Positions 6,367 through 22,461 of a stretch of DNA of 64,000 nt are shown here, one piece after another. Made by a program: the position numbers and the translations under genes. Source of the DNA: Bdellovibrionales bacterium. GTDB lineage: Bacteria; Myxococcota; XYA12-FULL-58-9; SYDY01. Location: the NCBI GenBank assembly GCA_005801425.1, contig SYDY01000063.1, positions 7,683 through 71,682 of the forward strand. The letters are read 5' to 3'. A model generated the notes under the pieces. That model had not been told where the DNA came from. It saw nothing but the letters and a program-made list of their open reading frames with translations, and did not search any database. Within the stretch, counting starts at the first letter, position 1, and every line of letters begins with the position of its first letter.

Positions 6367-6385
6367 TTTTTTGCGGCTATCTCCT

Positions 6386-6625
6386 TCATATCACCTCAAT
6401 TTCGAGATCACGATCCACCAAGAGCTTCTTGAGTCGCTGATTCTCGATTTCAAGTGATTTCAGTCGCCGCGTTTCGTCAGCCGCCATGTTGCCGAAGCGC
6501 TGACGCCACGCATACAGGGTTGCTTCGCTGATGCTGTACTTTTTGGCGACCGATGACACATGGGTCTGCTCGACCTCTCGAAGCATTAGCACCATTTGCT
6601 CTTCGCTGAATCGACCCTTACGCAT
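6386..6625 (-). CDS. IS3-family transposase orfA (helix-turn-helix)
   Basis: 80-residue OrfA with a helix-turn-helix (VAKKYSISEATLYAWRQRFG) and a leucine-rich coiled coil at the C-terminus (RLKSLEIENQRLKKLL). The start is the ATG at 6623-6625, preceded by GGAGAGGTT. The frame ends after LEIEV-I because of what looks like a 2-base insertion; in the shifted frame the usual family ending MKEIAAKKW follows directly. OrfA is thus probably truncated, unless recoding restores the frame. Confidence 0.75.
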   Translation of the reverse strand: MRKGRFSEEQMVLMLREVEQTHVSSVAKKYSISEATLYAWRQRFGNMAADETRRLKSLEIENQRLKKLLVDRDLEIEVI

Positions 6626-6759
6626 AACCTCTCCTTGCCCTTGGAAAGGCCATTTCTCAAGATTCACATGGTCCGAATTTTCCGGGGCAGGTCAGAGCCA
6701 CAAGAGAGTGGAATGCCAGCGACTCGCTTCTTGAGACAAAGATCGTTTTATACGTATTC

Positions 6760-7704
6760 CTATTTTTCAAAATTTATTCTCTCACTCTCCACAACCACCG
6801 GCCTTCGCTGAAGATACGTATGAATTGAACCAATATATTCCCCAAGAATGCCCATGAATAAAAAGAGCATCCCGAAAATAAAAAACATGCTGATGATCAA
6901 GGGTGCCATTCCGAATGGAAAATAATCCCAGTAAATCATTTTCAACACAAAAAACACCATCGCAGCAATGATGCTTAAAAAACCTATGGCATAACCCGCA
7001 AAGGCGGCCAACCGAATTGGCACTTTGGAGTGACTCACAATTCCCAGCATTGCGATATCATACAATGTGTAGAAATTATTTTTTGAAATGCCACGCAATC
7101 GCCTGGGCTGTTCAAAAGGAATCGTTTTAATCTCATAGCCCAACTCACAAATCAGGCCACGCAAAAAAGGGTAGGGGTCGTCTATCTTCCTTAGGTGAGA
7201 AAGAACTTCTCGGTCGTATAGGCCAAAACCTGTTGCATCCTTAACAAGTGAGATGTCTGAGATCCCATCGAGAAAGCGATAATAGGTTTTGCGTAGGGCA
7301 TGTACCCAAGCAACCCCTTGGCTAACAGGCTTGGTCGCCATGACCAGTTTGTAACCCTCTTCCCAGTACTGAATAAACTGGGGGATCATCTCCGGCGGAT
7401 CTTGTAAATCAGATGCCAAGTAAATCGTTGCAGATCCGGACGATTGCAGGATCCCATAATAAGGCGAACGAATGTGGCCAAAATTGCGGGTGTTAATAAT
7501 CACTTTAACCGTAGGATCTATCGCAGCCAGATGTTTCAATTTGGCCACCGTACTATCCTGCGAGTGGTTATCAATAAAAATTAACTCAAATTTGTATTTT
7601 GTTAGGTCGGCAATGGTTGCCTTGATCCGAGCATAGAGTTCGTCGATGTTATCTTCCTCGTTGTAGCAAGGCGTGACGATACTTAGAAGTAAGCGTTCTG
7701 ACAT
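6760..7704 (-). CDS. GtrB/ArnC-like polyprenyl-phosphate glycosyltransferase
   Basis: GT2-family enzyme that loads a sugar from a nucleotide donor onto undecaprenyl phosphate at the cytoplasmic face. The 314 residues start with LSIVTPCYNEEDNIDELY, have FIDNHSQDST and the metal-binding ASDLQDPPEM. Two C-terminal membrane helices follow at about 230-300, the standard layout of GtrB, ArnC and DPM1-like enzymes. The start overlaps the stop of the methyltransferase (TAATG), and a GtrA-like protein lies two genes upstream, so the pair probably delivers a side-chain or modifying sugar for periplasmic transfer. The sugar is not known. Confidence 0.88.
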   Translation of the reverse strand: MSERLLLSIVTPCYNEEDNIDELYARIKATIADLTKYKFELIFIDNHSQDSTVAKLKHLAAIDPTVKVIINTRNFGHIRSPYYGILQSSGSATIYLASDLQDPPEMIPQFIQYWEEGYKLVMATKPVSQGVAWVHALRKTYYRFLDGISDISLVKDATGFGLYDREVLSHLRKIDDPYPFLRGLICELGYEIKTIPFEQPRRLRGISKNNFYTLYDIAMLGIVSHSKVPIRLAAFAGYAIGFLSIIAAMVFFVLKMIYWDYFPFGMAPLIISMFFIFGMLFLFMGILGEYIGSIHTYLQRRPVVVESERINFEK

Positions 7705-8636
7705 TATTTTGCGCCGTTTTTAGGAGTTGCGATCGTCAACATGTTGCCCAGTTTAAGGCCCAGTGTGATCTGACCGAAACTCGGCACAGATTTGACTTTC
7801 AAGCCAAAAGCCCAAAGCAAGTGCTTAAGAAGAAAACTCGCCTGAAAATAATTGACCGTTTTTTTCTGCTGAACAACTTCAAATCCTGCCGCTTCCAGCA
7901 CCACACGCATGCTTTTCTTGTTATAGAGTTGCGGATGCTGAAGGCAGAATGCTGGCCACCTCCACCCAATGAGACGCCGTAAAAGAGAAGATTCGTCATG
8001 AGTTACCAGCAGCAACTTAGCACCGGGCTGAAGCTTCTGCCTAAGTTCACGCAAGGTGGCTATAGGATCGAGGAGGTGATCTAAAACATGAATAAGCACT
8101 GCCGCCGATGCCGAATGATCAGGGACATGAGAGAATCCGAACATATCATGGATGATGTGAAATTTCCGCCCCTCAACGATTTTACTGAGCGCTGGCCCCA
8201 CGTCACGGTTCGGCTCAAAGAGCCAGTATTCATTGTATGAGCCTTCACGTACGCAATTCTCGGTGAACAGACCAATATCCGGCCCCACCTCGATGAATCC
8301 ACCTTCGAGACTGGAGCATTTTTTCAATGCATCGAAATAACCACGCTGCGTTCGGCGAAGTGCTTCCAATGGCACTTCCGCCATATTCGGTGGCATTTGG
8401 CCGTAGAGATGCTCCAACTGAGAAGCGTTGAAAAATGTCGGTGCGTAAAGAAGTCTGCAACCACGACAGCGTGTATAGGAGAAAAACACCTTGTCTTTAA
8501 AAAAACCGTTCCAATAAGGAACCAAGGTATCGAATTCAAGAGACTCTGCCGTCATTTCGGAATGCACAGTGTCTTGTGAAGCCGATTTTACGTCGCATAC
8601 CGGACAGGCACGGTTGGAGAAACTGATTTCATTCAT
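7704..8636 (-). CDS. SAM-dependent methyltransferase with N-terminal zinc-binding cysteines
   Basis: About 310 residues. The N-terminus has CPVCD and, near residue 60, CRGCRLLY, a four-cysteine arrangement as in sugar C-methyltransferases. A class I methyltransferase fold follows (GGFIEVGPDIGLFTENCV and VLIHVLDHLLDP). The start at 8636 overlaps the gtrA-like stop (ATGA); an ATG two codons upstream is also possible. Its place in the coupled operon with the TPP enzyme and the sugar dehydrogenase suggests methylation of a nucleotide-bound deoxysugar. It is shorter than the roughly 400-residue TylC3-type enzymes, so an O-methyltransferase is equally possible. Confidence 0.75.
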   Translation of the reverse strand: MNEISFSNRACPVCDVKSASQDTVHSEMTAESLEFDTLVPYWNGFFKDKVFFSYTRCRGCRLLYAPTFFNASQLEHLYGQMPPNMAEVPLEALRRTQRGYFDALKKCSSLEGGFIEVGPDIGLFTENCVREGSYNEYWLFEPNRDVGPALSKIVEGRKFHIIHDMFGFSHVPDHSASAAVLIHVLDHLLDPIATLRELRQKLQPGAKLLLVTHDESSLLRRLIGWRWPAFCLQHPQLYNKKSMRVVLEAAGFEVVQQKKTVNYFQASFLLKHLLWAFGLKVKSVPSFGQITLGLKLGNMLTIATPKNGAK

Positions 8637-9082
8637 GAGCATGTCACTTTTGATGAAGAAAATGTAATACGACTGTGCCAAAAATAGCTGGTCACGATGA
8701 CTAGAACGGCAAACAACGTCTGTGCCAAAACGGGATTCATACCTGCAAACTCCACGAGGGCCGGTAGTGCTGCAAGATTCACGAGGAAATACAGCACGTG
8801 AAACGTAAGAAACCCCCCGGACTCTCGTAGATAATTCCCTGAAGTTCTAAACACCAAAAATTTGTTGGTTAAAAAAGAGAATGCCACACAGAGCACTTGG
8901 CTGAGGACCAAGATTGTTAGGTAATGAAGCTTCAAGGGTTTCGTAAAAAAATAAAGTACAGGATAGGTTGTTAAACCTATGGCCGTGTTAAGCGCACCCG
9001 CCAAGAGAAATCTTATTTTTGTTTGATGCTCGCTTGCAAAATGTCTACAAACGCCCATGAAATTTCGCCATCGCCCCATCAC
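8633..9082 (-). CDS. GtrA-family membrane protein
   Basis: Small polytopic protein of about 149 residues with four hydrophobic helices and the family-like KIRFLLAGALNTAIGLTTY and SFLTNKFLVFR. GtrA proteins are thought to flip polyprenyl-phosphate-linked sugars made by GtrB. A GTG at 9080-9082 overlaps the TAG of the TPP enzyme gene, and an ATG at 9077-9079 is the alternative. The GtrB-like partner is at 6760-7704 in the same coupled operon. Confidence 0.88.
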   Translation of the reverse strand: MMGRWRNFMGVCRHFASEHQTKIRFLLAGALNTAIGLTTYPVLYFFTKPLKLHYLTILVLSQVLCVAFSFLTNKFLVFRTSGNYLRESGGFLTFHVLYFLVNLAALPALVEFAGMNPVLAQTLFAVLVIVTSYFWHSRITFSSSKVTCS

Positions 9083-10884
9083 TAATCCTCGATCATGTCT
9101 ATCAGCATGTTCTCTCGCAACTCTTCCCGAGAAAGAAATGGTGACAAATCTTCAAGGGGTGGGGAAGTAATGCGTCCATCCGGCCACTGCTTGGCCCCAA
9201 GCTTCGGTGCAAAGGACAGATTTTCGTCCAACATCACTTCACATACTGCCGGACCACTCACCGCCAGGGTGCCAGCAATGGCCTGAGCCATGTCTTCATG
9301 ATTCGCACAACGACGGAAAGGCAAACCGAAACCTTCACTGAGGCGAGCAAAGTCAGGGAACGTCACGCCGCTCTTGGGGCCACCGCCCACTTCTACACCG
9401 CCAAAGAAATTGCGATGTGTCTGAAAAATGGAAACGTAACCACTGTTATTGAGAATGAAGATCTTAATCGGCAGATGGTTACCCACGATGGTTTGAAGTT
9501 CCTGAAGATTCATCATGATGCTGCCATCACCGGCAAGACAAACGATAGGCTTATTGCCCGAACCCTTGCATGCACCAATCGCTCCCGGCAGATCATATCC
9601 CATGGTTGCACATCCGGAATTTGTCCATAGGCGCTGGCCATGTTTTATTTCAGCCGTCTGAAAACTGACGACACACGCGGAGCCATTCGCCGATACAACG
9701 ATTTGATCTTCTTCGAGTTGCCCAAACAGAGTTTTCATAAAGCAGTAAGGATTAACCCGATCATTGTTCCAATACTCTGGTAAAACCACCGGAAATCGAC
9801 GCTGCCGTTCTTTGCACCATGCCATCCATGATTGTTGATCCTGCGTAGGACCATCATAGGCCTGATTCGCAAGTACTGGCAGGAGATCGGCAAGATTTGC
9901 GAGTACAGGCATATCCGCCTTGACGGTGGGCTTGCGCATTTCGTTCTCGTCGATATCCACCCAGATCTTGTAGGCTTCACGTGCGAACGATTTCCAATTG
10001 TAGCTTACTTGACGAATGTTAAGTCGGCTGCCCAGGATAAGCAGAAGATCAGCATTTTGCACGGTAAAGTTACCAGCGCGATCCCCTATGGTGCCAGGAC
10101 GCCCTGCATAGTTTGGGTGTGCATCCCAAAGCACGTCATGGGCATTCCAACCCGTAACAACCGGTATACCAAGCTTGTCCACCAAACGAATAAAGGCTTC
10201 GTGCTGGCCACTCAGGCGCACGCCACCGCCAGCGAATATAACGGGGCGTTTGGCTGTCGCTACTTTATCGAGAATAGCAGCGCTCGTTGCAGAGAGATCA
10301 GTGCGCTTCCAAGGCTCTTCAAGCTCTGCAGGATCGAACCCAGGCAAAGACTCAGGATCGATCTGTGCACCTTGGACATTCAATGGAATATCCAACCAAC
10401 AAGGACCTGGACGTCCCGACGTAGCCAGATACATGGCTTTTTCCAAGTGGTAACGAATGGTTTGAGGATCGGTCACCATGACGCAGTATTTCGTGATCGG
10501 ACGCACCAATTCTTCGATGTCGAGTTCCTGATCACCATACTGACGAAGAGGAAGACCGGTGCTGCGTACCGTTGTTTCCCATTTTACTTGACCAGACAGC
10601 ACCAACATTCCAATCGAATCAACAAAAGCACCGTAAACCCCGGTGATGGCATTGGTGCCGCCTGGTCCGGAAGTAATATTGACCACGGGCAAGCGGTTGG
10701 TGAGGCGATAGTAAGCTTCTGCTGCAATAGAACACGCCTGCTCATGATGGTTGAATATGCACTCAAGTTCTTTGTGGGTGCCAAGGGAGTGATTGAGGTG
10801 CATCGCACCACCACCGGTCACCATGAACACATGGCGGATCCCGTGTTCAACAACTTTTTGAGCAACATAGTCTGACAACTTCAT
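9082..10884 (-). CDS. Acetolactate-synthase-like thiamine pyrophosphate enzyme (YerE-like candidate)
   Basis: 600 residues with the three domains of the acetohydroxyacid synthase family. The N-terminal pyrimidine-binding domain has the activating Glu in NHHEQACSIAAEAYYR (about residue 48). A central domain is followed by a C-terminal pyrophosphate-binding domain with GDGSIMMNLQEL and the closing NN (IFILNN). No valine/isoleucine genes are nearby; instead it sits among CDP-sugar genes. This is the setting of YerE, which adds a two-carbon unit to a CDP-4-keto sugar to make a branched sugar. Start at 10884 forms an ATGA overlap with the upstream gene. Fold certain; sugar-branching role inferred. 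Confidence 0.8.
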   Translation of the reverse strand: MKLSDYVAQKVVEHGIRHVFMVTGGGAMHLNHSLGTHKELECIFNHHEQACSIAAEAYYRLTNRLPVVNITSGPGGTNAITGVYGAFVDSIGMLVLSGQVKWETTVRSTGLPLRQYGDQELDIEELVRPITKYCVMVTDPQTIRYHLEKAMYLATSGRPGPCWLDIPLNVQGAQIDPESLPGFDPAELEEPWKRTDLSATSAAILDKVATAKRPVIFAGGGVRLSGQHEAFIRLVDKLGIPVVTGWNAHDVLWDAHPNYAGRPGTIGDRAGNFTVQNADLLLILGSRLNIRQVSYNWKSFAREAYKIWVDIDENEMRKPTVKADMPVLANLADLLPVLANQAYDGPTQDQQSWMAWCKERQRRFPVVLPEYWNNDRVNPYCFMKTLFGQLEEDQIVVSANGSACVVSFQTAEIKHGQRLWTNSGCATMGYDLPGAIGACKGSGNKPIVCLAGDGSIMMNLQELQTIVGNHLPIKIFILNNSGYVSIFQTHRNFFGGVEVGGGPKSGVTFPDFARLSEGFGLPFRRCANHEDMAQAIAGTLAVSGPAVCEVMLDENLSFAPKLGAKQWPDGRITSPPLEDLSPFLSREELRENMLIDMIED

Positions 10885-11978
10885 GTTTTTTTCCCCATCC
10901 AACCATTCCACATTGCCGTTCTGGATATTGCATCGTCTAAGGAAACGGTTTTGTGCAATCCAAGATCTTTACCGATAAGAGAAGTATCCGGTACGTACCG
11001 ACCAGGATTCCAGCCCGTATCTTGGGCGCCTAAAACTTGGTGATCCCCATTTCCAAGCACATGAGAAATTTTTTGGGCCAAATCACGAATAGAGATCGAT
11101 TGATCAGATCCCACATTGTAAGGCTTGCCTGATTGCGCCCTCACCAGCATATGCCAAAGCCAAACCGTCAGATCAGATGCGTAAAGATAAGATCGACAGG
11201 GCAGGCCATTGCCATTCACGATCACAGGCTCGCCTTGCATGGCGTTGCGAATAAAATTTCCTGCCGCAAAATGAATGTCCAAAGATAAATACGGACCAAG
11301 CAAGGCAAAAATACGGGCAATCGCAATCTGAGTACCAAACTGTTTGGCATAAATCGCACACAACATTTCAGCCGCACGCTTGCCCTCTGCGTAGGCCGCA
11401 CGTGGATCGGTACAACTGGGGGCACCTATCCAGTCCTCTGCGACCCGCTCCATTTCCCAGGGCTGCTGACCATACACTGCACCAGAACTTAAGAAGAGCG
11501 TACGATCCACTTTTTTTTCCACAGCGAAATCCAAAGCCATACGCGTCCCTTGGATGACAGTGTCGAACATGCGTCGTGGATTTGTTTCATTGAGGTGGGC
11601 ACTCGCATCCGTGGCGGCATGAATAAGATGCGTAAACTCACCCTTCGGCATCTCAAAATTACAAACATCACCTGCGATAAAATGGAACCCGGGATAATCG
11701 GCCAGGTGGGGCGCCTTACAACGAAATACTTGGGGATCCCGTGTCAGGATGGTGGCATGCACACCAAGGTCAAGACGATTGTTAACATAGCGCAAACTTT
11801 CCAGAAGCCAACAACCGATAAAACCAGTACCTCCCGTAATAAACAGGCGCGCTCCACGCAATGCCGGCCAAAGAGAAGCCGTCTTCTCAAACACATCGTT
11901 AAGATCGTTGCTAAAGGACCAATATGCCGCATGAGAGCTTTCACCGCGTAATGGCTGGATAGACTCTTCCTGGAGCAT
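10881..11978 (-). CDS. NAD-dependent epimerase/dehydratase (SDR, nucleotide-sugar type)
   Basis: 365-residue extended SDR. The Rossmann motif ITGGTGFIG is at residues 47-55 and the active-site Y-x3-K at YAEGK, with the preceding Ser in LSSGAVYG. It opens the coupled minus-strand operon with the TPP enzyme, gtrA-like, methyltransferase and gtrB-like genes. By analogy to yersiniose synthesis it could reduce the acetyl branch or the 4-keto group of the product of the TPP enzyme. It could also be an ordinary nucleotide-sugar 4-epimerase or reductase; the sequence alone does not decide. Confidence 0.8.
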   Translation of the reverse strand: MLQEESIQPLRGESSHAAYWSFSNDLNDVFEKTASLWPALRGARLFITGGTGFIGCWLLESLRYVNNRLDLGVHATILTRDPQVFRCKAPHLADYPGFHFIAGDVCNFEMPKGEFTHLIHAATDASAHLNETNPRRMFDTVIQGTRMALDFAVEKKVDRTLFLSSGAVYGQQPWEMERVAEDWIGAPSCTDPRAAYAEGKRAAEMLCAIYAKQFGTQIAIARIFALLGPYLSLDIHFAAGNFIRNAMQGEPVIVNGNGLPCRSYLYASDLTVWLWHMLVRAQSGKPYNVGSDQSISIRDLAQKISHVLGNGDHQVLGAQDTGWNPGRYVPDTSLIGKDLGLHKTVSLDDAISRTAMWNGWMGKKT

Positions 11979-12040: not shown

Positions 12041-14086
12041 TCATTCACAGACTTCGATTGCGCTATTGAGCCGTTTTTCAAGACCTTCTGCACCCATTTC
12101 AATATTCTGTAACATGGGCGTTCCAAATGCATACATTGCAAACAAAGATGATTCGCTCAATTTCGGTAGCGGAATATCCCTTGAATGTGGGTATTCTTTG
12201 CGCACCAAATAGTGTGTCCATCCCAGTTGTTTTGCGTAGCACAAGATAGAATCGTCCCAAAGTGTGGCACCTAGTACTCTTTCTTGAAGTGCGACAGCAT
12301 GATCAACCGCCGGAGAGTTACCCGTCGCGTTACTTGCAAACATGGCATGCCCATAGATGCTGGTAGGCTCTTCAAAAGATAACTTGCGCTTGGTCTTGTA
12401 TGGCCTTTGGAGACTGTTGGATACTATAAGGCTTCCCTCGTATGGGATCACAGAAAGTACCGTTGCCAGTTTTGTTTCGAAACGAAATAGGGTTGTTCTC
12501 AATGGTTTTTGTGATGCGTATACACGGAAATGTGCTCGCAAGGACAATACAGCCATACATATCGCCAGTATTTTGAACAAGCCGATAGCGTAAGGTTGCA
12601 ATCTATTCTTGGATAGTGTGAGACGTTCGATGCATAATGCAACATAAAGCGGCCACCCAATACGAAAGGCCGGAAGTGATGCTTGCAAGATATTGTAATC
12701 AGAGATCGGGATCTCAGCGCCATAATCCATGAAAATGAACATGTTAGGGAAAAGCATAGGAAATGCCAGGAGGCTGAGAATTAACGCACGCTGGGATTCT
12801 TTCGTGCGCCAGCGCTTGATGACCAAATCCAGCACGACAACGCCTAAGAAAGCGTAGCTGACCATCAAAGCCAATATGCGTGGCGAGGTAAACGGCGCAA
12901 AGGATCGCAGATGGTATCCTAAATACAGTTCTAGGTGTATGTCACCTCTTTGACTTGAGGATGTGAGCCATATTGTCGCAATCGCGGTCCCGATCGACAC
13001 CATGAGAGGCCATGCACTCGCAAAGCGTGGTATCGTGGTTGAATACCTTTTGCTATACCAATAAAGAAGCGACCAAGCTCCAACAGCAGCACCCATCCCA
13101 GGAAATTGAGGCTGTTTCGCCAGTGCAATTCCAAAAAGAAAAAAAGATAAACGGCCCAGGCACACCCATTGTTCACGTGCTTTCTTTTCCGTTTGAAAAC
13201 AATCAATGGTGAGAACAACCACCATACAAAGAAACAAACCATACATAGTGACAGGTGCATGATACTGGACCCACAATGGAGATATTGTCGGTCCGAAGGC
13301 ATCGTGATTGGAACTAAACAAATCGATGACTACATTTTTAATTTCGCTCAATCTTTCCATCGGGAGTAGCCACCCGATGAGAGGTACACACCATCGCATG
13401 CGATCACTTATTTTCCAGCGCTCCAGAATGACATAGAGAACAGCGGCTGATGCAAATATGGTAGTATACACAGAGGTCATCAAATACACCGTTCGAGGTG
13501 CTGCCTGAGTCATTTGTGCAATCGTGACTGCCCAAATTTGAACCAAGAAATGTCCCTCATTAAGAAACCCCTGATTGACGAGGGACTTGGGCGGGTAACC
13601 TGTGTTGTGTAAGAAAGACAGCCCTTGTTGGAGATGCGTGATATTGTCTCCCGTTTTAAGCGGATAGTGGGTAAGCGCTGGAGCACCTTCCATGGATGCG
13701 TAAATATATCCCGCGAACGCGACCAAACACGTGAACGCATACAATGCATCCCATGGCGTAATATTGATCCGGTTCGTTATGTTAAACGGACGAGATAAAG
13801 CGAGAGCCACACCTACGACAGTCAGTGCTGTCGCTGCGTGGCCTATTTCAATGCCAAACTTTGCGCATACAATAGCCAGCCCGCCCATGGGCAAAACGCC
13901 AAGGCCGAGAGAGACCATCGCTTTTACGAAGCTTAGGTCTTCCTGCCAACCCATGAACCAAGCACTCGGCACCAGCATACCAAACATCATGACCAGGAAA
14001 AGTTTGCAAGCGACGAGAACGCCTGTACCTGATGCAATGGATGTCGACCCGGCAAGAAATAAAACCACTGCGATTGCCATGGTCAT
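12041..14086 (-). CDS. Large polytopic membrane protein, possible GT-C glycosyltransferase
   Basis: 681 residues with about 12 hydrophobic segments and a C-terminal soluble part of about 150 residues. The loop LKTGDNITHLQQGLSFLHN near residue 140 has the acidic/His character of the first periplasmic loop of GT-C enzymes, but no family could be named. The last codons are duplicated as a remnant at 1374-1483. No wzy or wzx gene is otherwise evident, so an O-antigen polymerase role is possible. Confidence 0.5.
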   Translation of the reverse strand: MTMAIAVVLFLAGSTSIASGTGVLVACKLFLVMMFGMLVPSAWFMGWQEDLSFVKAMVSLGLGVLPMGGLAIVCAKFGIEIGHAATALTVVGVALALSRPFNITNRINITPWDALYAFTCLVAFAGYIYASMEGAPALTHYPLKTGDNITHLQQGLSFLHNTGYPPKSLVNQGFLNEGHFLVQIWAVTIAQMTQAAPRTVYLMTSVYTTIFASAAVLYVILERWKISDRMRWCVPLIGWLLPMERLSEIKNVVIDLFSSNHDAFGPTISPLWVQYHAPVTMYGLFLCMVVVLTIDCFQTEKKAREQWVCLGRLSFFLFGIALAKQPQFPGMGAAVGAWSLLYWYSKRYSTTIPRFASAWPLMVSIGTAIATIWLTSSSQRGDIHLELYLGYHLRSFAPFTSPRILALMVSYAFLGVVVLDLVIKRWRTKESQRALILSLLAFPMLFPNMFIFMDYGAEIPISDYNILQASLPAFRIGWPLYVALCIERLTLSKNRLQPYAIGLFKILAICMAVLSLRAHFRVYASQKPLRTTLFRFETKLATVLSVIPYEGSLIVSNSLQRPYKTKRKLSFEEPTSIYGHAMFASNATGNSPAVDHAVALQERVLGATLWDDSILCYAKQLGWTHYLVRKEYPHSRDIPLPKLSESSLFAMYAFGTPMLQNIEMGAEGLEKRLNSAIEVCE
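12061..12121. repeat. Right copy of the 61-bp direct repeat
   Basis: 3' coding end of the membrane-protein gene at 12041-14086, in the same orientation as 1421-1481. Homologous recombination between the copies would remove the 10.6 kb in between and leave one membrane-protein gene next to the foldase gene. Confidence 0.7.
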
Positions 14087-14148: not shown

Positions 14149-15150
14149 TTATTTTTGGCTGAAAAATGAGGATGATTCGAGAGAATCAAAACGCTTAAAG
14201 GTTGGTTTGACGATGTCACTATTGAGTATCGTGCTAAATTTAGAAGCCCCGATGGCATTGAGATGATCGACCATATATGTGAAGTCTTCAAGGGCAAATC
14301 GCGGATCATCGGAATAATCGTGAAACTCAATCTGATGTTTTTCAGCGAAATCACCCAATGATTTTTTAAATAGAGCATAAAGATCTGGATTTAAATTTTC
14401 GCGATAAGAGCCATGAGTCGGCATCTCGATTATGATTGGCATAATCCCACGTGCTTTTGTGGCGACGATAATCTTTTTCCAGTATTCGAGATTCTTTGTA
14501 TAGAGATTGCTTTGCGTCATACTGTGTGCCTTGGCTGCATCCGGCCCCACATTCGCTTTAAGTGATCCGAATTCACGCCCGCCATCAAACCAGCCACTGG
14601 GTTGTGGCTCATTATCTACCTTGGTGTTAAAACGATCCAGGACATATCGGTAGACGTTGTCGCCAAAGAGAGCGATCTTGCTGAAATTCTTGGCGTCGAA
14701 GAGATATCCCCAATGCATCAACTGCTCAGCGGATGGCTCAAGACGAAGTCCATAATACTGGCTGTAAAAATACATTCGAAAATCTTGTGATGAGGTGGGT
14801 CCAAGTTCGGTGCCCATCGTATAGAAAATGGCTGGAAGAATGATGATCTTTAGGTTCGGCATTCGTGGCATATATTTCATCGCCAATGCTTGGTCGTAAT
14901 ACATGCTCTGGGCGAGGTTTGCGAGATTGTAACCTTTTCTTTCGAAGCGATCGGGATTGATTCCATAGTATGCATTTGAAGAACCAAGGGTCAGAATTTC
15001 AATTTCAGAAAGTTGATTTTCTAAAGCAATTCGCTTGGTAAAATAACTTGTGTTCATCGAATATAGATGGAATTCAAGAATGCCAAGTATGACTGCGGCT
15101 GGCAGTAACAATAATACGATTTTGTAAACAAGTGCTCTTTGCATGGTCAT
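14149..15150 (-). CDS. SGNH-hydrolase-like membrane-anchored protein, partner of the MBOAT protein
   Basis: 333 residues with an N-terminal membrane anchor (IVLLLLPAAVILGIL, about 11-25) and a periplasmic domain. The domain starts with LTLGSSNAYYGINP, a GSSN block like the first SGNH motif, and near the C-terminus has MVDHLNAIGASKF, resembling the last catalytic Asp/His block. Such proteins (AlgJ/AlgX/DltD-like) work with an MBOAT protein to acylate an exported polymer, and the MBOAT gene lies 9 nt upstream. A second ATG two codons in (15144) is an alternative start. Catalytic residues were assigned by eye. Confidence 0.7.
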   Translation of the reverse strand: MTMQRALVYKIVLLLLPAAVILGILEFHLYSMNTSYFTKRIALENQLSEIEILTLGSSNAYYGINPDRFERKGYNLANLAQSMYYDQALAMKYMPRMPNLKIIILPAIFYTMGTELGPTSSQDFRMYFYSQYYGLRLEPSAEQLMHWGYLFDAKNFSKIALFGDNVYRYVLDRFNTKVDNEPQPSGWFDGGREFGSLKANVGPDAAKAHSMTQSNLYTKNLEYWKKIIVATKARGIMPIIIEMPTHGSYRENLNPDLYALFKKSLGDFAEKHQIEFHDYSDDPRFALEDFTYMVDHLNAIGASKFSTILNSDIVKPTFKRFDSLESSSFFSQK

Positions 15151-15159
15151 CCGGTTCCG

Positions 15160-16626
15160 TTAAAATTGAAAGTAGATGAAGTCTTGCTTCTTGAACCAAA
15201 TCCCGAAGAGCACGAGTGCAAATACCGACCCCTGATAGATTGGCCAGCGGACCCACCACGGACGATCTGCAATGATGACATCGAAGTTGAGCCGTGGTTT
15301 GAGCATCATGAAAAACTCAAGCCCCAAAAGCGCAGACATTAGGCCAAGGCAAAAATAGAAGTCAGTTCTTGCGCTTAAAAATTCATGGGCCTTACGTAGA
15401 GACAAAAATTGATAGGCATTTTGATTGGGTTTAAATAGATGCGTAAGAATGTAGGACGCATCGCCCAAGGTTTTCGCGCGAAAAAAAATATAAGTGAGGC
15501 TCACAAAGCAAAACGTGAATGCGATGCTTAAGCCGTCAAAGAGTGCGGATGGTAGGACCTTTGCCAATTTTTTCCGAGGCTTGGCCCAGAGCATCTCGAG
15601 CGAGAGAGCCGTACCATGCAAGAGACCCCAAAATACAAAATTCCAACTTGCGCCGTGCCACAGGCCGCTGATGAGAAAAGTCGTCATCAGTGCGACAATG
15701 ATCCCTGTCTTCCCCCAATCGCGCAAATGCAGCGAAATAGGCTCGTAGATATAATCACGCAACCAGGTTGAGAGAGATATATGCCAACGCTTCCAGAACT
15801 CGGCGAGAGTTTTGGAAGTGTAAGGTCGGTCGAAATTTTTCATGAGTGTAAAACCCATGGTTCGGGCTGTGCCAATCGCGATGTCAGAATAGCCTGAGAA
15901 ATCACAATAGATTTGCACTGTAAAAAATGCTGTTGCTAACAAAAGTGGTAGACCGGCAAAAGTTCCCGGTTTATCGAAAATGGGATTCACAAATTGTGCC
16001 AGACGATCGGCGATCACAACCTTCTTGAAAAGTCCCCAAGCGATGAGTCTGAGGCCGCTCGTGAACATCTGGTAATTAAAATCGTGCTTTTCATGAAACT
16101 GATGCAAAAGATTTTGAGGTCTTTCAATCGGTCCGGCAACAAGCTGTGGATAGAACATCACATAGAGTGCGTAGATACCGAAATGTCGTTCAGGCTTAAA
16201 ATTCCCGCGATAGACTTCAATGACGTAGCTCAAGCTCTGGAAGGTATGAAATGAAAGCCCAATGGGAAGAATAATTTCGAGTACTGGGAGGGAGTAGTTC
16301 CAATGCAGAAGCTTGGCCACGTCATTAACGTTTAAAACAAAGAAATTAAAATACTTGAAGAAAAAGAGAATCAAACACGTAACAACAATGCTGACGAAGA
16401 AAAGCAACTGACGCACGCGTCCATGAGTTTTAACGATCCACAGGGCTGCAAAGTAATCAACGATTATGGTGGCAGCCAGAATCAAAATGTATTTCGGCAC
16501 GAACGACATATAAAAAAAGCAACTCGCACTGAGCAGGATCGGCCAACGAAAGCGATGCGGTACCGCAAAGTAAAGTATCGTGACGATGGGAAAAAAAACG
16601 CAGAACGCCCAGGAATTAAATAACAT
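15160..16626 (-). CDS. MBOAT-family O-acyltransferase (AlgI/DltB-like)
   Basis: 488-residue polytopic protein that moves an acyl group across the inner membrane for transfer to a polysaccharide. Both conserved histidines are present: WHISLS (His282) and LWHGASWNF (His324). Family blocks FFYMSFVPKYILIL, LPIGLSFHTFQSLSYVIEVYRG and YPQLVAGPIERP also match. The ATG lies inside the end of the upstream SDR gene (11-nt overlap). With an acyl carrier protein and acyl-processing genes upstream, the acyl donor here may be a carrier-bound, non-acetyl group, as D-alanine is for DltB; that is inference. Confidence 0.93.
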   Translation of the reverse strand: MLFNSWAFCVFFPIVTILYFAVPHRFRWPILLSASCFFYMSFVPKYILILAATIIVDYFAALWIVKTHGRVRQLLFFVSIVVTCLILFFFKYFNFFVLNVNDVAKLLHWNYSLPVLEIILPIGLSFHTFQSLSYVIEVYRGNFKPERHFGIYALYVMFYPQLVAGPIERPQNLLHQFHEKHDFNYQMFTSGLRLIAWGLFKKVVIADRLAQFVNPIFDKPGTFAGLPLLLATAFFTVQIYCDFSGYSDIAIGTARTMGFTLMKNFDRPYTSKTLAEFWKRWHISLSTWLRDYIYEPISLHLRDWGKTGIIVALMTTFLISGLWHGASWNFVFWGLLHGTALSLEMLWAKPRKKLAKVLPSALFDGLSIAFTFCFVSLTYIFFRAKTLGDASYILTHLFKPNQNAYQFLSLRKAHEFLSARTDFYFCLGLMSALLGLEFFMMLKPRLNFDVIIADRPWWVRWPIYQGSVFALVLFGIWFKKQDFIYFQF

Positions 16627-17344
16627 CAGCGCCTCCGTTCATGATGATGTTGGCGCCATTGATGTGTGGACTTGCACGAACTAGAAATTCGATCGTGTCG
16701 GCCACCTCTTGTGGGGTGATCAGGGCTTTTAAGGGATGCGCTTCGATCATCTCGGCGATGACTCGTTCGTCGACATCAGATGTCAGCTGAGTTTGCATTA
16801 AAGAAGGGGATACGCAGCATGAGGTGATATTGTGGCGCGCATTCTCCACGCACCAAGATTTACTCATTGAGGCCAAATAGGCCTTGTTGGCGACGTACTC
16901 GGCAAGACCCGTCGGTGGTCGGTTAATCAAGTAAGACGTCAGCACGTTGATTATTTTTCCTGATTTTTTCTTACGAAAAGCCAAAATGGCCTGCTGCGTG
17001 ATCTGCACTGTCGGCAGAACATTATGAACAAAGCTGGTTTGAAATGCGGCAGGTTCAGTTTTGTGAAAATGCTTGGTTATCAAGCCTGTCCACGCATTAT
17101 TGATCAGTACATCAAGTCCTAGATCGGGGATCTGCATAAGGAGAAGATGGAGACTTTCTGGGTCTGTAAAGTCACAGTGCAAAGCTTTGGCTTGAGGGAA
17201 CTCATGTTCAATTCGTGTCGCAGCTTCAAGGGAACGATTGTAGGTGAAAAATACCCGGTTGTCAGATGAGCGCACGAGACTTCTCGTGATCGCTTCACCA
17301 AGACTGGAAGCTCCCCCAGTAATGAGTATTCTTCTCGAGTACAT
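16616..17344 (-). CDS. Short-chain dehydrogenase/reductase (FabG-like)
   Basis: 242 residues, classical SDR. The cofactor loop is ILITGGASSLGEAI (residues 6-19), the NNA motif is LINNAW, and the catalytic Tyr/Lys are in YVANK with a Ser in VLTSYL. It starts in a TAATG overlap with the MaoC-like gene, and the MBOAT start is inside its end, so the three are translated together. Neighbouring ACP, FkbH and MaoC-like genes suggest it reduces a keto group on an ACP-bound intermediate. Substrate not determinable from sequence. Confidence 0.85.
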   Translation of the reverse strand: MYSRRILITGGASSLGEAITRSLVRSSDNRVFFTYNRSLEAATRIEHEFPQAKALHCDFTDPESLHLLLMQIPDLGLDVLINNAWTGLITKHFHKTEPAAFQTSFVHNVLPTVQITQQAILAFRKKKSGKIINVLTSYLINRPPTGLAEYVANKAYLASMSKSWCVENARHNITSCCVSPSLMQTQLTSDVDERVIAEMIEAHPLKALITPQEVADTIEFLVRASPHINGANIIMNGGADVI

Positions 17345-17736
17345 TATGAAAGAACTCCCACTTGCAGTCGCCCTTTGGCAACGTTGGTTCCGCTTTCATT
17401 TTGAAATTGAAATTTAAACTCCAGTGCACCGACAGAATCGAAGATACCTGAAATTTCGGCTTGTAGCTTCAGCCGGTCGCCCATGTAGACCGGTTTTGCA
17501 AATTTGATTTCTTGTGAATGGATAATAACATTGCGGATCGGAAGGCATTCTCCGACGAAATAGGACAGGAAACCGTTGAGAATATTTCCATGCATGACTT
17601 CGCTTTGAAATCCCTTGGCTCTTGCGAACGCGCCATCCGTGTGAAGTTCATTGCGATCGCGGAATATTTCGATAAAGCCGTGATAGACGACTTTGGTGAT
17701 TTCGAAGTCCTGCGTAAATCGATCACCTAGCTTCAT
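17344..17736 (-). CDS. MaoC-like hot-dog dehydratase/hydratase
   Basis: About 130 residues, a single hot-dog domain. The (R)-hydratase motif D-x4-H is at Asp27-His32 (FRDRNELHTDGAFARAKGF), followed by the substrate-binding VMHGNILNGFLSYF. I chose ATG 17736 (MKLGDRF), 13 nt after the ACP gene; the frame is open further upstream but would overlap acp heavily. In MaoC proteins the pair catalyses reversible hydration of a trans-2-enoyl thioester, so dehydration of a hydroxyacyl-ACP is the natural guess here. Ends in a TAATG overlap with the SDR gene. Confidence 0.82.
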   Translation of the reverse strand: MKLGDRFTQDFEITKVVYHGFIEIFRDRNELHTDGAFARAKGFQSEVMHGNILNGFLSYFVGECLPIRNVIIHSQEIKFAKPVYMGDRLKLQAEISGIFDSVGALEFKFQFQNESGTNVAKGRLQVGVLS

Positions 17737-17749
17737 TTTCGTCGTCCAG

Positions 17750-18004
17750 TCATGCGCTGATCGCTCTGAGCGAATTTGCGAGTGCATCGCACATTTCACC
17801 GACATTTTTCCAAGATCGGATCTCTTGTGAAGTAAATTTCACTTTGAAATGTTTCTCAATTCCAACCACAAGCTGAATGTGATTGAGTGAGTCCCAATCC
17901 TCAACGTCTGCTGCGGTTGTCTCGCGTGATAATACGATGGCCTCATTGTCGAGGACATCAATGAAAATTTTGTTCACGTCCTGCATCACTTGTTCGCTAT
18001 TCAT
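17750..18004 (-). CDS. Acyl carrier protein
   Basis: 84-residue four-helix carrier. The phosphopantetheine attachment Ser is residue 39 in EDWDSLNHIQLV, matching the DSL motif, here D-S-L-N. The start overlaps the stop of the FkbH gene (TAATG), as is common for dedicated glyceryl carriers. It would carry the acyl group built by FkbH and handled by the MaoC-like and SDR proteins before transfer through the MBOAT protein. It is not the housekeeping AcpP, judging by sequence and neighbours. Confidence 0.93.
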   Translation of the reverse strand: MNSEQVMQDVNKIFIDVLDNEAIVLSRETTAADVEDWDSLNHIQLVVGIEKHFKVKFTSQEIRSWKNVGEMCDALANSLRAISA

Positions 18005-19734
18005 TAGAGACTCCCAGAATATTCGATAAAGGTAGCACGGGCCTGGCTTTGCGGCACATCAAGAATCCATCTTCCATCTGCCATGGGGGTAAAGTCGAGC
18101 TTGAGGTAGTGATCTTTCACCAAAGCATTTTTTGGCGTTGGAAGATATTCTCCGATGATTTCGTTGAACCCAATCTCTTTCGCTGCCTGTATTATTTTAT
18201 TGAGCACCAGACATTCAACGCCGCGCTTAAGAACTCGGCAGCTCATGATCCAAGTATCAATAAAAAGACTTTTCTCAATTTTTTTGAGAATTACGGCGCT
18301 GATCAATCCATGGTCGCCAAACTTGTCTTTGAGGCTAAACGATCCATGGAAATACTCATTTGATTTAGCCACTTTCCTGACTTCGTCTTCTGAATACCTG
18401 ACCGTACGCAAATTGAATTGGTTAGATCTTTGAATCAGTTGAGCGACACGTGGAATATCAAAATCAAGAAATGGCTTGATTGTGCAGGTCATGTTGAGAC
18501 TTTTTAAAAAATCATTTTCGTTCGTAAACGACTTTTGAAGTACAACACGTTTGGCTTCTTCGTGAAATTGTCGGGTCCGATGTTCATCCTCATCAGTGAA
18601 TGATGCCGTTTCAAAGAGGTTGAGACTTCGGAGAAACGGCATGTATTCAGCCGGATCTTCGGGGAGCTCGGGCACAGTGACGTCAGGCAGGTGTTCCCGA
18701 ACGACGTTTCTTTCAAATGGATTGTCGTCGACAAAGACCATCGAATCATAGCCGATGTTGAGAAAATTTTTGATAGAGTTGATATTGTCAACTTTGCTGT
18801 CCCAGTTGGCCACGAAGATGGATATATCCTCTAAGCGCAAAACCATATCGGGATGTTTTTCAAACGGTTCTTTGGCGATTTCTTCATTGTTCTTGCTGCA
18901 GACGGCGAGCAGGATGCCGCGTTCTTTGAGTTGCTTGGCCCAGGCTTGAAGTTCAGAAAAGGCTTTGCCCATGCCGAGATCGCCAATTTCAATGGATTGG
19001 ATCCCATCATCACCAATGATTCCACCCCAAATCGTATTGTCCAGATCGAGAATCAGACATTTTTTAAAGACGCCGCTATTGGCCAGCATGATATCGAGAA
19101 TGCTTTTGGCAAGGGAAGGGATGAAATCCAGGCTAAAAACCATATCAGCTTCGATATAATTTCTCATATCAAAAACGTGATTTATTCCGAAGCGGTTTTG
19201 AAGAAGCGAGACATCGCAAATAAAGAGATTCTTCGTTTCGCGGGCCAGCTCCATGAGCTCAAAATTGAGTTTACGCAATTGATAGATGAATGATGTCGAA
19301 GTCTTGTTTGAGAAATTCCCAAAAACCGAGTCGTCCAGTTCTGGAAAGTTAAAGCAAATAACTTTTGCTCGTAAACCCTTGTCGCGCATGATTTCGAGCC
19401 AGTCAGAAACTTTATTTTTCTGATTCTCGGCGAAACTCGTCTTCCCTGCCTTATCCTCTTGGTAGAATGATTTTAAAAGTTTGGTTGTACTTTGAAATAA
19501 GACCAAAAATTCCGGGTCAAACTGATAGAGCTCAGAAGAGTTATCGGTGATCTGCTGTTCTATCTGATTGTAATCGGCCTCAAAAATTTCAAGGTTCTGA
19601 CCCACTTCATAGCCATAGCCGCGCAGCGCTTGATTAAGAAACTGCGTTGAACTATCACCCAAGAGAGCAACGCGTGTTTTCTTGAGGCCAGAAAAATCTT
19701 TTTTGAGATTTTTTTTAAGCTCAAAGAATCGCAT
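18004..19734 (-). CDS. FkbH-like protein (HAD-IIIC phosphatase/acyl-ACP loading)
   Basis: 576 residues. An N-terminal SGNH-like region (RVALLGDSSTQFLNQALRGYG) precedes the HAD domain with the nucleophile motif LILDLDNTIWGGIIGDDG (Asp230 and Asp232) and VFVDDNPFERN. A GNAT-like C-terminal domain follows (IDTWIMSCRVLKRGVE, about residues 490-510). Known FkbH proteins take 1,3-bisphosphoglycerate, remove a phosphate and load glyceryl onto an ACP. The directly coupled ACP gene fits that role. Some FkbH proteins in O-antigen loci load other three-carbon units, so glyceryl is the best but unproven guess. Confidence 0.9.
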   Translation of the reverse strand: MRFFELKKNLKKDFSGLKKTRVALLGDSSTQFLNQALRGYGYEVGQNLEIFEADYNQIEQQITDNSSELYQFDPEFLVLFQSTTKLLKSFYQEDKAGKTSFAENQKNKVSDWLEIMRDKGLRAKVICFNFPELDDSVFGNFSNKTSTSFIYQLRKLNFELMELARETKNLFICDVSLLQNRFGINHVFDMRNYIEADMVFSLDFIPSLAKSILDIMLANSGVFKKCLILDLDNTIWGGIIGDDGIQSIEIGDLGMGKAFSELQAWAKQLKERGILLAVCSKNNEEIAKEPFEKHPDMVLRLEDISIFVANWDSKVDNINSIKNFLNIGYDSMVFVDDNPFERNVVREHLPDVTVPELPEDPAEYMPFLRSLNLFETASFTDEDEHRTRQFHEEAKRVVLQKSFTNENDFLKSLNMTCTIKPFLDFDIPRVAQLIQRSNQFNLRTVRYSEDEVRKVAKSNEYFHGSFSLKDKFGDHGLISAVILKKIEKSLFIDTWIMSCRVLKRGVECLVLNKIIQAAKEIGFNEIIGEYLPTPKNALVKDHYLKLDFTPMADGRWILDVPQSQARATFIEYSGSL

Positions 19735-19773
19735 GTCTATTAACTACCCAGTTGATAATTTCTTGGCCGATTG

Positions 19774-20592
19774 CTAAGCAACATGCCGCGTAACATTGGT
19801 TTTCAATAAATTCCAACGGGCTTCAAGCATCTCAATTCGTTTATTATCCTCCCGCTCGATCAACCCATAGTACTCACGTTTATTCAAAAGCCACAAAAGT
19901 TCGAAGTGCACAGCAAGCAGGAGTCCTTGCTCTAAATTTTTGATATCGAGCGCGTTGCTTGAAAAAATCACTTTGCGTGTCTCGAAGCGGGTGAGATGAA
20001 CACTCTCCATTTTTCGAAGTGCAGGGAGCGCATCAATTCCCACGCCTCCGCCCACAACATAATCAAAGTTCTTTGCCTTGCATGCCTTCGCCACATTTAA
20101 CACATAATTGGTAATAGGATCCGTATTGATTGCTTCACGTGTCAAATTATGGGAGAGCGAAAAATCCACACGACCAAAGACCACACCATCCACGCCATCT
20201 GGACGTGAAGCTTCTGCCATCAACGCATCCAATTGATTGTAGGCATTAATCGTTTCTAGATTAAAGAGGAACTGGGTATCCTCCCGCTCCTCAGCCGAGT
20301 AAACTTTATTTTTTGCATCAATAAATTTTGATAGTGCGTAGGGAGATTCAATCATAGGCGCGATAATGTATTCGACACCAAGCTGCTTGCTTTCGAGCAA
20401 ATCACGAACAGCCTCGCATCCCCCGATTTTCAGGCCAACATTAAGCCCTGCTTTTCTCGAAATTTCATTTAAGCGAAGAAATTCTTCAATGCGCGTTCCT
20501 TCTGCTTCAAACTCAGCCTTAACCCCATCATAGCCGTATTCTTCTTTGCCTCTTCGAAGAATATTCAGCATGTCTCTTTCATATTTGTTCAC
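19774..20592 (-). CDS. HpcH/HpaI-family aldolase/citrate-lyase-like protein
   Basis: 272 residues resembling the TIM-barrel HpcH/HpaI family, which makes or breaks C-C bonds of 2-keto acids or CoA esters using a divalent metal. Visible family blocks are [30 protein letters not shown] (metal-site Glu) and [15 protein letters not shown] (Asp). The start is GTG at 20590-20592, 5 nt after a G7 tract. Between a cyclase-like and an FkbH gene, it may add or remove a pyruvate-type unit. Function in this cluster unknown. Confidence 0.75.
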
Positions 20593-20597
20593 AGCAA

Positions 20598-20604
20598 CCC
20601 CCCC
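20598..20604 (-). promoter_or_regulatory. G7 tract acting as ribosome binding site of the aldolase gene
   Basis: Seven G residues on the minus strand end 5 nt before the GTG start at 20592, the same arrangement as the G9 tract before rfbF. No other Shine-Dalgarno is visible. Confidence 0.45.
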
Positions 20605-20648
20605 ATAATACAGTGTCCAGTCTGTTTTAGGAGAAAGAGCGGAAAAGT

Positions 20649-21764
20649 CTATTTTATCGCCAGATAATTTTTTATTAAGGTAGGGTCGGCAAGCCGATGA
20701 ATAGCGGCACGGAAAGCCGCTTTAATCGCTGAGCGTCCTTCTTCGGTACGCGCAATTGACACAAGCTCAAGGGAACCATCACCTTTAGGTATTACGATAC
20801 GATATTGATCTGCGTGGTGCTTTTTGTCGTTGTCGAATTTTTCCATAAAGACGTCAATATCCAATCTACGCAATTCTTCGGCAAGCGGTGGCAACTCTCT
20901 CAGCAGTTGTTCTATATGAGTAGTAAGTTGCAGAACACATTCGGATCCCGTGGCAGTTAGAAATCCACGTTGTTTGGCATACTCATGCGCCACCACCATA
21001 CCTACGCCAACAGCAACGCCATGGGTAATTCTGAATTCTGTTGCAGACTCAATCGCATGGCCAAAAGTATGACCAAAATTGAGCAATAAACGTTCCTTTT
21101 TGTCAAACTCGTCAATCTCAATAAACCACTGCTTGGCTTTAATACTACGAACGATAATTCGCTCGGCTTGAAGTGCTGACATCTTAATGGCAGGCGATTC
21201 AGCCAAATAAAGATCATACTCGTGAGAAGAACGTGCATAGCAAATTTTGGCTGCCTCACAAAGACCGCCAACGATCTGTTCTGCGTTAAGGCTACGCAAG
21301 AAATCCAGATCAATCATCACTTCGGCAGGCGGGTAAAAATTGCCGACCAGATTTTTATAACTGTACACATTGATTGATGATTTACCGCCCACGCATGAGT
21401 CAACCATACTAAGCAGCGTTGTCGGAAAATAGGTCCAAGCAATGCCACGCATGTAAATAGAGGCAACGAAGGTCGCAATATCTTGGATAACTCCACCGCC
21501 AAGAGCCAGAAGATGCGTGCGGCGATGTGCACCCAATTCACGAAGTTTTGCAATGATTGGCGCGATTTGCTCAAGCGACTTGCTGCCCTCAAGCGCAGGG
21601 ACAGCAATCACCTTTCCAATACCTGTTGGCAATATGCCCGAAAAATACGCATCCGTTAAAATGACCACGTCTTCACGTGCCCGCAATGCTTCAGTCAGAA
21701 GACCTCTTCCAGTAGACACGCGGTAGCAACCTGAAGAAGTGCTAATGTCAAAGGATTCGGGCAT
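20649..21764 (-). CDS. 3-dehydroquinate-synthase-like sugar phosphate cyclase
   Basis: 371 residues with the NAD-binding [19 protein letters not shown] and [20 protein letters not shown], the Zn-ligand region [13 protein letters not shown] and a late H (THGVAVGVG). The true AroB of this organism is the fusion at 34839-36467, so this is a paralogue for special metabolism. It departs from AroB at the phosphate-binding loop: [10 protein letters not shown] replaces TGVN-x-x-x-GKN, losing the Gly before Lys-Asn. ATG 21764 is preceded by GAGG and overlaps the upstream SDR by 17 nt. Product may be a carbocycle or cyclitol for the glycan; which one is unknown. Confidence 0.82.
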
Positions 21765-22461
21765 AGGAAAAACCTCTATCGGCAGCAATGAATTGACCTG
21801 TAATGCCTGTGTTCTCCGCAGAACACAGAAATCCAACCATGTTACTTACATCTTCAAGTGTGGGCAGCTTCCCCAGTGGCGTAAGCGCCTCCAGATTAGA
21901 CACCTGTTCCATGCTCAGATTTGCATGCGTCATAGGCGTATCCAGTGCGCCAGGAAGAACGGCATTCACCAAATGTCCTTCCCTGCCAAGATCAATGGCA
22001 AGCGACTGAACCAGGCCTTGTAAAGCAGACTTGCTCACGGTGTATGAGAGTTTGTTTTGACGGGCAATATTTTGCCAGATGGAACTGATGACACAAAGTC
22101 GAGATGGCGCGGCTAGCGAGCCATGTGCAAGTAATGCGTGCAGTGTCTTCATAATATACACCACATTGACACGATAAATGTCTTCGTGTGATGCCACATC
22201 AAACGTATGAATGTTATCATTTAAATTTTGGCCTTGTGCCCATACGATGGCATTGAACGGCTGACATATTTCATTGGGTATTCCTTTATTTTCCGAAAAA
22301 GGATCCCACGATATCCAGTCCCCCCCCGATTTGGCATCCATCGGAGAAATAGATCGGGCAATCGCCGTGACTTCCCAATCGTGAACAAGAAACCACTTGG
22401 CAAGTGCTTTGCCTATTGATCCAGATGCACCAAATATAAGTGATCTTTTCTTTCCGTTCAT
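21748..22461 (-). CDS. Short-chain dehydrogenase/reductase
   Basis: 237 residues, classical SDR: cofactor loop IFGASGSIGKALAKW, catalytic Ser in VISSIWQN and Y-x3-K in SYTVSKSALQG. It begins the minus-strand modification operon, and the dehydroquinate-synthase-like gene starts inside its end. A G8 run at 22320-22327 falls in the coding sequence (Ser-Gly-Gly). Its likely job is oxidation or reduction of the cyclase product or another intermediate of this cluster. Confidence 0.83.
   Translation of the reverse strand: MNGKKRSLIFGASGSIGKALAKWFLVHDWEVTAIARSISPMDAKSGGDWISWDPFSENKGIPNEICQPFNAIVWAQGQNLNDNIHTFDVASHEDIYRVNVVYIMKTLHALLAHGSLAAPSRLCVISSIWQNIARQNKLSYTVSKSALQGLVQSLAIDLGREGHLVNAVLPGALDTPMTHANLSMEQVSNLEALTPLGKLPTLEDVSNMVGFLCSAENTGITGQFIAADRGFSYARIL
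22320..22327 (-). repeat. G8 homopolymer inside the SDR gene
   Basis: Eight C on the plus strand (eight G in the coding strand) spanning the codons for Lys-Ser-Gly-Gly-Asp about 45 codons from the start. A one-base slip would truncate the first gene of the operon. Confidence 0.5.

Follow-up and report, generated by a model that had tools for sequence, protein, structure and literature searches.

A 64,000-nt stretch of contig SYDY01000063.1 from a Bdellovibrionales bacterium (the window, to which all positions refer unless a comparison locus is named) contains a long minus-strand gene run which, in our judgement, very probably consists of two separate modules feeding one surface glycan. Module 1 comprises rfbF, rfbG, an aldolase, an AroB-like enzyme (the cyclase), a short-chain dehydrogenase/reductase (SDR1), a thiamine diphosphate (ThDP) dependent enzyme, and an epimerase-like reductase (EPI), and is with high probability a pathway for a YerE-like branched sugar; module 2 is an acyl unit built around FkbH and an acyl carrier protein (ACP). 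What stands out as new is the AroB-like enzyme, which interchanges with phosphatases in a branched-sugar pathway. For the explanation as a whole, including a methyl-ended branch donor and an acyl decoration, we estimate a probability of roughly 0.6; all reactions and products proposed below are inferred from the observed gene content, linkage, phosphatase interchange, and family membership. The genes of the two modules are:

1544..2323 (+): rfbF-like glucose-1-phosphate cytidylyltransferase, module 1 (NTP_transferase; 43-52% identity to aldolase-adjacent rfbF elsewhere)
2287..3435 (+): rfbG-like CDP-glucose 4,6-dehydratase, module 1 (GDP_Man_Dehyd; at most 49% identity to aldolase-adjacent rfbG elsewhere)
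9082..10911 (-): ThDP enzyme, YerE-like, module 1 (closest solved relative JanthE, 8rph)
10881..11978 (-): epimerase-like reductase EPI, module 1 (PF01370, 3e-34; pairs with the ThDP enzyme)
14149..15150 (-): SGNH-like periplasmic MBOAT partner, module 2 (LGSSN and DHLN motifs; 9 nt past MBOAT)
15160..16626 (-): MBOAT acyltransferase, module 2 (PF03062, 1e-28)
16616..17344 (-): SDR2 reductase, module 2 (adh_short_C2, 7e-30)
17344..17805 (-): MaoC-like dehydratase/hydratase, module 2 (PF01575, 5e-10; start probably at 17736 or 17805)
17750..18004 (-): acyl carrier protein, module 2 (PF00550 PP-binding, 1e-4; DSL serine motif in the sequence)
18004..19734 (-): FkbH, module 2 (FkbH_N, 9e-72; TIGR01686, 2e-92, over cut-off)
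19774..20592 (-): HpcH/HpaI-like aldolase of the phosphoenolpyruvate/pyruvate superfamily, module 1 (PF03328 HpcH_HpaI, 7e-7)
20649..21764 (-): AroB-like cyclase, proposed phosphate lyase, module 1 (DHQ_synthase, 2e-37; TIGR04425, 4e-87)
21748..22461 (-): SDR1 reductase, module 1 (adh_short_C2, 6e-27; adjoins the cyclase in all 28 loci with a cyclase)

Querying the genome collection with the aldolase yielded 80 loci which, together with a locus on a Novosphingobium plasmid, gave 81 loci from several phyla (comparison loci bear L numbers); up to 10 kb on each side of the aldolase were considered as its neighbourhood. A relative of the ThDP enzyme was found near the aldolase in 70 of the 81 loci, EPI in 57, rfbG in 46, RfbH (identified by NF011936) in 44, and rfbF in 41; SDR1 occurred in 29 loci and the cyclase in 28, the pair of both being present in 28. 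None of the 81 neighbourhoods contained FkbH, ACP, MaoC, MBOAT, or SGNH. Among 15 whole genomes possessing module 1, 13 had no FkbH anywhere and two a distant FkbH elsewhere. The Methylomonas locus L041 and the Pararobbsia locus L042 share the order rfbF-rfbG-rfbH-aldolase-SDR1-cyclase-EPI-ThDP; the Sphingomonadales locus L091 is arranged as aldolase-SDR1-cyclase-GT2-EPI-ThDP-GtrA-methyltransferase-rfbG-rfbF (GT2, family 2 glycosyltransferase), which is the gene content of the window's module 1. EPI directly precedes the ThDP enzyme in L038, L041, L042, and the sphingomonads. In sphingomonad loci of the type L081, L087, L090, L092, L097, L098, L104, and L109, a block EPI-ThDP-GtrA-methyltransferase, whose EPI and ThDP proteins are 53-71% identical to those of the window, is located about 7 kb from the aldolase, and RfbH is not nearby. 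The aldolase was detected on three plasmids in a plasmid search and was not found in a search of phages; one of the three, on an Ilyobacter plasmid, is 32% identical and looks catabolic.

The companions of the aldolase fall into three phosphate-removing types. Of the 81 loci, 28 have the cyclase, each time with SDR1, 19 have a HAD phosphatase, and 16 an inositol-monophosphatase-type protein; no locus contained two of the three types together. A tree built from 68 aldolases requires at least 11 changes among the three companion states; if the starred branches alone are counted, at least five changes are needed for the cyclase and at least five for the HAD label. Switches of the companion occurred within the mycobacteria, within the Acidobacteriaceae, and among Solirubrobacterales-like loci. 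(The contigs of L065 and L067 bear the title Bifidobacterium breve, which looks wrong for L065, since its aldolase falls among Solirubrobacterales sequences; L067 is outside the tree.) Because the cyclase swaps with two phosphatase types and never stands alongside them, we propose that its role is the removal of phosphate by elimination, a step that belongs to the chemistry of dehydroquinate synthase. Most simply, the product of the aldolase would be phosphorylated and would have to lose its phosphate: hydrolysis would generate a CH2OH end, elimination and reduction by SDR1 a CH3 end. Since ring closure would consume the α-keto group needed by the ThDP enzyme, it probably does not occur here, and we slightly favour a cyclase acting without ring closure. 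We give even odds to the more detailed proposal that a non-cyclising AroB-like phosphate lyase, an aldolase, and a reductase produce a methyl-ended α-keto acid for a YerE-like ThDP enzyme, phosphatases replacing the lyase where the branch ends in CH2OH.

With respect to its family, the cyclase scored 293 bits against TIGR04425 (AroB-related phospholyase), which is below the cut-off of 400 and still the best family match; the score against TIGR01357 (AroB) was 253 bits (cut-off 305). The motifs were inspected in 27 cyclases aligned with 20 AroB-like sequences. The catalytic motifs of AroB are kept in the cyclase (GGG-D, the D of VDS, GGK, KN, and E-x-x-[18 protein letters not shown]). In the DEFD motif, a Glu-to-Asp change might have signalled the loss of ring closure; this idea was dropped because the AroB-like sequence of L004 has the change and two divergent cyclases lack it. 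The pair of aldolase and AroB-like enzyme mirrors 3-deoxy-D-arabino-heptulosonate 7-phosphate synthase and AroB (3-dehydroquinate synthase), from which the window's enzyme differs by its score below cut-off, its neighbours, and its proposed stop after phosphate elimination. It is a second copy, as the housekeeping AroB is encoded by a separate gene at about 35499-36386 of the window; the identification of the cyclase with the housekeeping enzyme was rejected on these grounds. Its longest open reading frame (ORF) spans 20649-21836 with a TTG start, the likely start being the ATG at 21764.

The aldolase scored 29.2 bits against PF03328 (gathering score 25), and its GTG start is backed by an alignment with 34 relatives. 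Its AlphaFold model has a pLDDT of 94.5; Foldseek returned AbHpaI with pyruvate as best match (7e-8), and structure comparison placed HpaI-type class II pyruvate aldolases near the top at Z values of 18-19, equal to those of pyruvate kinase and SbnG. The model suggests that the enzyme is likely to use pyruvate. Among solved structures, the ThDP enzyme is closest to JanthE (8rph, 425 bits), a YerE-like enzyme (PMC12188165); the next match, acetolactate synthase, reached 241 bits. It belongs to the EPI-paired subgroup and is 66-83% identical to the copies of sphingomonads, Methylomonas, and Pararobbsia. The YerE-like enzyme ErwE refuses pyruvate and favours 4-hydroxy-2-oxo acids (PMC12247030), which are products of pyruvate aldolases. 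The pathways of yersiniose (YerE), erwiniose (ErwE), and JanthE share with the window the type of ThDP enzyme and the supply of a CDP-4-keto sugar, and the proposed use of a hydroxylated α-keto acid donor is common to the window and ErwE; what the window adds is a dedicated aldolase, the AroB-like enzyme, and SDR1 for the synthesis of this donor. Yersiniose as sole product was rejected because a two-carbon branch derived from pyruvate needs no aldolase. A literature search for TIGR04425, FkbH with dehydroquinate synthase, and YerE with aldolase found no described pathway, most subscription journals lying outside the search.

A link to a known sugar came from an aldolase profile search in a PE-rich actinobacterial genus, assumed to be Mycobacterium, of which 297 genomes were covered. 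The aldolase was present in eight of them, and five of these eight have aldolase, SDR1, cyclase, ThDP enzyme, GT2, rfbF, rfbH, and rfbG together. In L174, unlike in L167, L168, L170, L171, and L173, a HAD phosphatase replaces SDR1 and the cyclase. Together, L167 and the neighbouring L175 and L176 constitute a locus reaching from a wecE-like gene to a polyketide synthase (PKS), FadD, MmpL, PapA, and a further PKS, and MMAR_2340 to MMAR_2344 of M. marinum have this same order (PMC4403928, PMC12507525, PMC5706390). As six genes lie between GT2 and the PKS corresponding to MMAR_2340, GT2 would be MMAR_2333, the ThDP enzyme MMAR_2332, and the aldolase MMAR_2331. Mutants of these three M. marinum genes accumulate lipooligosaccharide without caryophyllose (PMC5706390), and a role in caryophyllose formation has been attributed to the ThDP enzyme MMAR_2332 (PMC12247030). 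Caryophyllose is a 3,6-dideoxy-4-C-(1,3,4,5-tetrahydroxyhexyl)-hexose (PMC5706390). C2 of its branch is deoxy, like the methyl carbon of pyruvate, and C6 is a methyl group, which fits a route via aldolase, elimination, and reduction. Gastriose of M. gastri, which presumably keeps a terminal CH2OH, would fit the HAD type. In L167, a ROK-kinase-like ORF (6299-7573 of that locus, minus strand) overlaps the end of the cyclase gene and could supply a sugar phosphate. The region MMAR_2331 to MMAR_2336 and the window have in common rfbF, rfbG, GT2, and GtrA, which in mycobacteria lie in one locus; identities between window and mycobacterial proteins are about 60% for the aldolase, 26-38% for SDR1, 33-42% for the cyclase, and 33% for the ThDP enzyme. 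In contrast to the mycobacterial system, the window's ThDP enzyme is from a different subgroup and has an EPI gene next to it, and the run has an FkbH acyl unit inserted between aldolase and EPI.

Based on these comparisons, the most likely product of module 1 is a CDP-activated 6-deoxyhexose with a long branch at C4, of the caryophyllose type. RfbF and RfbG would generate CDP-4-keto-6-deoxyglucose. The aldolase would combine pyruvate with a phosphorylated aldehyde, probably of four carbons, to give a 2-keto-3-deoxy sugar acid phosphate, which the AroB-like enzyme would oxidise, expelling the phosphate by elimination; protonation would then take the place of ring closure. Reduction of the remaining ketone by SDR1 would produce a CH3-ended chain that is still an α-keto acid. 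The YerE-like ThDP enzyme would decarboxylate this acid and add the acyl anion to the C4 ketone, EPI would reduce the newly formed ketone, and GT2, GtrA, and the membrane protein encoded downstream of module 2 may move the sugar across the membrane.

In module 2, FkbH scored 309.6 bits against TIGR01686 (cut-off 146.65), and the ACP is adjacent. The proposal of the initial annotation that FkbH, ACP, MaoC, SDR2, MBOAT, and SGNH belong to one unit for a carrier-bound acyl group agrees with our comparison, as the order FkbH-ACP-MaoC-SDR recurs in the window's phylum: L148 and L149 have the same order, L150 and L152 the set in part, in all four cases without cyclase or aldolase. In known systems, FkbH and ACP load a glyceryl group. 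Following the formation of glyceryl-ACP, MaoC might remove water to give an enol and hence pyruvoyl-ACP, which SDR2 would reduce to lactyl-ACP; MBOAT and the SGNH protein would transfer the acyl group outside the membrane onto the same surface glycan. Lactyl-ACP as product is a tentative assignment at less than even odds, for which a comparable arrangement in the loading module of bryostatin may be a precedent. In a competing reading, to which we likewise attach less than even odds, the acyl product of module 2 is simply glyceryl or some other short group, and MaoC and SDR2 have a different substrate, for example an external acyl-CoA. Glyceryl transfer alone is possible, since FkbH-ACP-MBOAT sets lacking MaoC and SDR exist in Rhodobacteraceae SC52, Sinorhizobium meliloti, and L151. 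In the units of S. meliloti pSymB and SC52, FkbH, ACP, and MBOAT are close together as in the window, which adds MaoC and SDR2 as do L148, L149, and L150. Against plain glyceryl speaks the arrangement in L148 (7305-8483) and L150 (7544-8893), where MaoC and SDR form one fusion protein and hold their place next to ACP and FkbH, which points to an action on the FkbH product. The fusion gene of L148 adjoins GNAT and acyltransferase-3 genes, that of L150 a GSCFA protein.

Several observations weigh against the explanation by two modules with a methyl-ended branch. The search began from the aldolase, so that the linkage is conditional on this enzyme. All three phosphate-removing types are missing from 17 of the 81 loci; some of these are truncated by contig ends, about nine are not. 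No companion gene is close by in L049, L051, L077, L088, L089, L095, L105, and L032 despite full or near-full flanks, and a profile search of the companion-less loci for the three types found nothing new within reach of the aldolase. The MMAR numbers rest on gene order, not on named sequences. RfbH is absent from the window's own genome (best match 133 bits, cut-off 423), and the 3-deoxy step of M. marinum is thus missing; the sugar should keep its 3-hydroxyl group and be a 4-C-branched 6-deoxyhexose. Consequently, the product cannot be caryophyllose itself, and we do not file the system as a caryophyllose pathway. Pfam searches gave no match for the SGNH-like protein, whose assignment is based on motifs only, and none for the 681-aa membrane protein of the run. 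Finally, the cyclase retains its active-site residues and is hence compatible with ring closure.

One alternative accepts module 1 as proposed and has the AroB-like enzyme close a carbocycle, so that the branched sugar would be carbocyclic, similar in kind to caryose or bradyrhizose. All residues that can be mapped to dehydroquinate synthase catalysis are kept, the nearest family is named "cyclizing" by NCBIfam, and carbocyclic bacterial sugars such as bradyrhizose exist (PMC4743980). We nevertheless regard ring closure as improbable: it would use up the α-keto group required by the ThDP enzyme, the gene is exchanged for plain phosphatases, and the cyclase is present in loci of the type of caryophyllose, which is an open-chain sugar. 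Moreover, in the family to which L044 belongs, and which we take to hold Bradyrhizobium, a single genome out of 341 has the aldolase, that of L044 itself. Makers of bradyrhizose therefore probably do not use the aldolase, and this sugar was set aside.

Very improbable, and rejected on linkage, is the joint pathway of the initial annotation, in which cyclase, aldolase, and the FkbH set make one ACP-bound acyl group for MBOAT: the genes do lie in one run with short junctions, but the comparative check proposed there came out against it, since the recurrent partners of the aldolase are cyclase plus SDR1, the ThDP enzyme, and rfbFGH, in none of the 81 loci FkbH, ACP, MaoC, or MBOAT, 13 of the 15 whole genomes with module 1 lack FkbH, and the FkbH set is found without cyclase and aldolase, each module having its own independent partners.

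Concerning the run itself, all genes noted initially are intact ORFs at their positions and their families hold, except for the SGNH-like protein, which matched no family. The run extends beyond the limits set there, from 22461 down to 6760; rfbF and rfbG (1544-3435) are on the opposite strand. Overlaps were found for SDR1/cyclase (17 nt), FkbH/ACP (1 nt), MaoC/SDR2 (1 nt), and SDR2/MBOAT (11 nt); ACP and MaoC overlap by 56 nt, or are separated by 13 nt if MaoC starts at 17736. The gaps amount to 56 nt before the aldolase, 39 nt after it, and 9 nt before the SGNH gene; those flanking the aldolase are the longest within the stretch first annotated. A scan for promoters and terminators gave about as many sites as in shuffled sequence and thus neither supports nor denies a single operon. 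Besides EPI and the ThDP enzyme, the continuation on the same strand encodes:

12041..14086 (-): 681-aa membrane protein, possibly a GT-C type transferase, as its place in the run suggests
8633..9082 (-): GtrA-like flippase (PF04138, 3e-18)
7704..8681 (-): S-adenosylmethionine-dependent methyltransferase, companion of EPI-ThDP-GtrA (PF13489, 1e-24)
6760..7704 (-): family 2 glycosyltransferase, polyprenyl-phosphate type (PF00535, 1e-24)

A minus-strand ORF at 5565-6101, located between rfbG and the end of the run, resembles the C-terminal portion of IS3-type transposases; modules may have been gained or lost by this route.

If the explanation is true, it would account for the bacterial synthesis of the long methyl-ended branch in caryophyllose-type sugars, a step for which no enzymes are described in the literature searched, and would provide a complete donor route to such sugars across several phyla. 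It would imply a rule for reading genomes, according to which an aldolase with an AroB-like enzyme and an SDR indicates a CH3 end and an aldolase with a phosphatase a CH2OH end; the switch in L174 within one mycobacterial genus accordingly predicts lipooligosaccharides with differing branch ends. It would correct automated annotations like "3-dehydroquinate synthase" for genes of polysaccharide loci, and a textbook enzyme family would have a new outcome.

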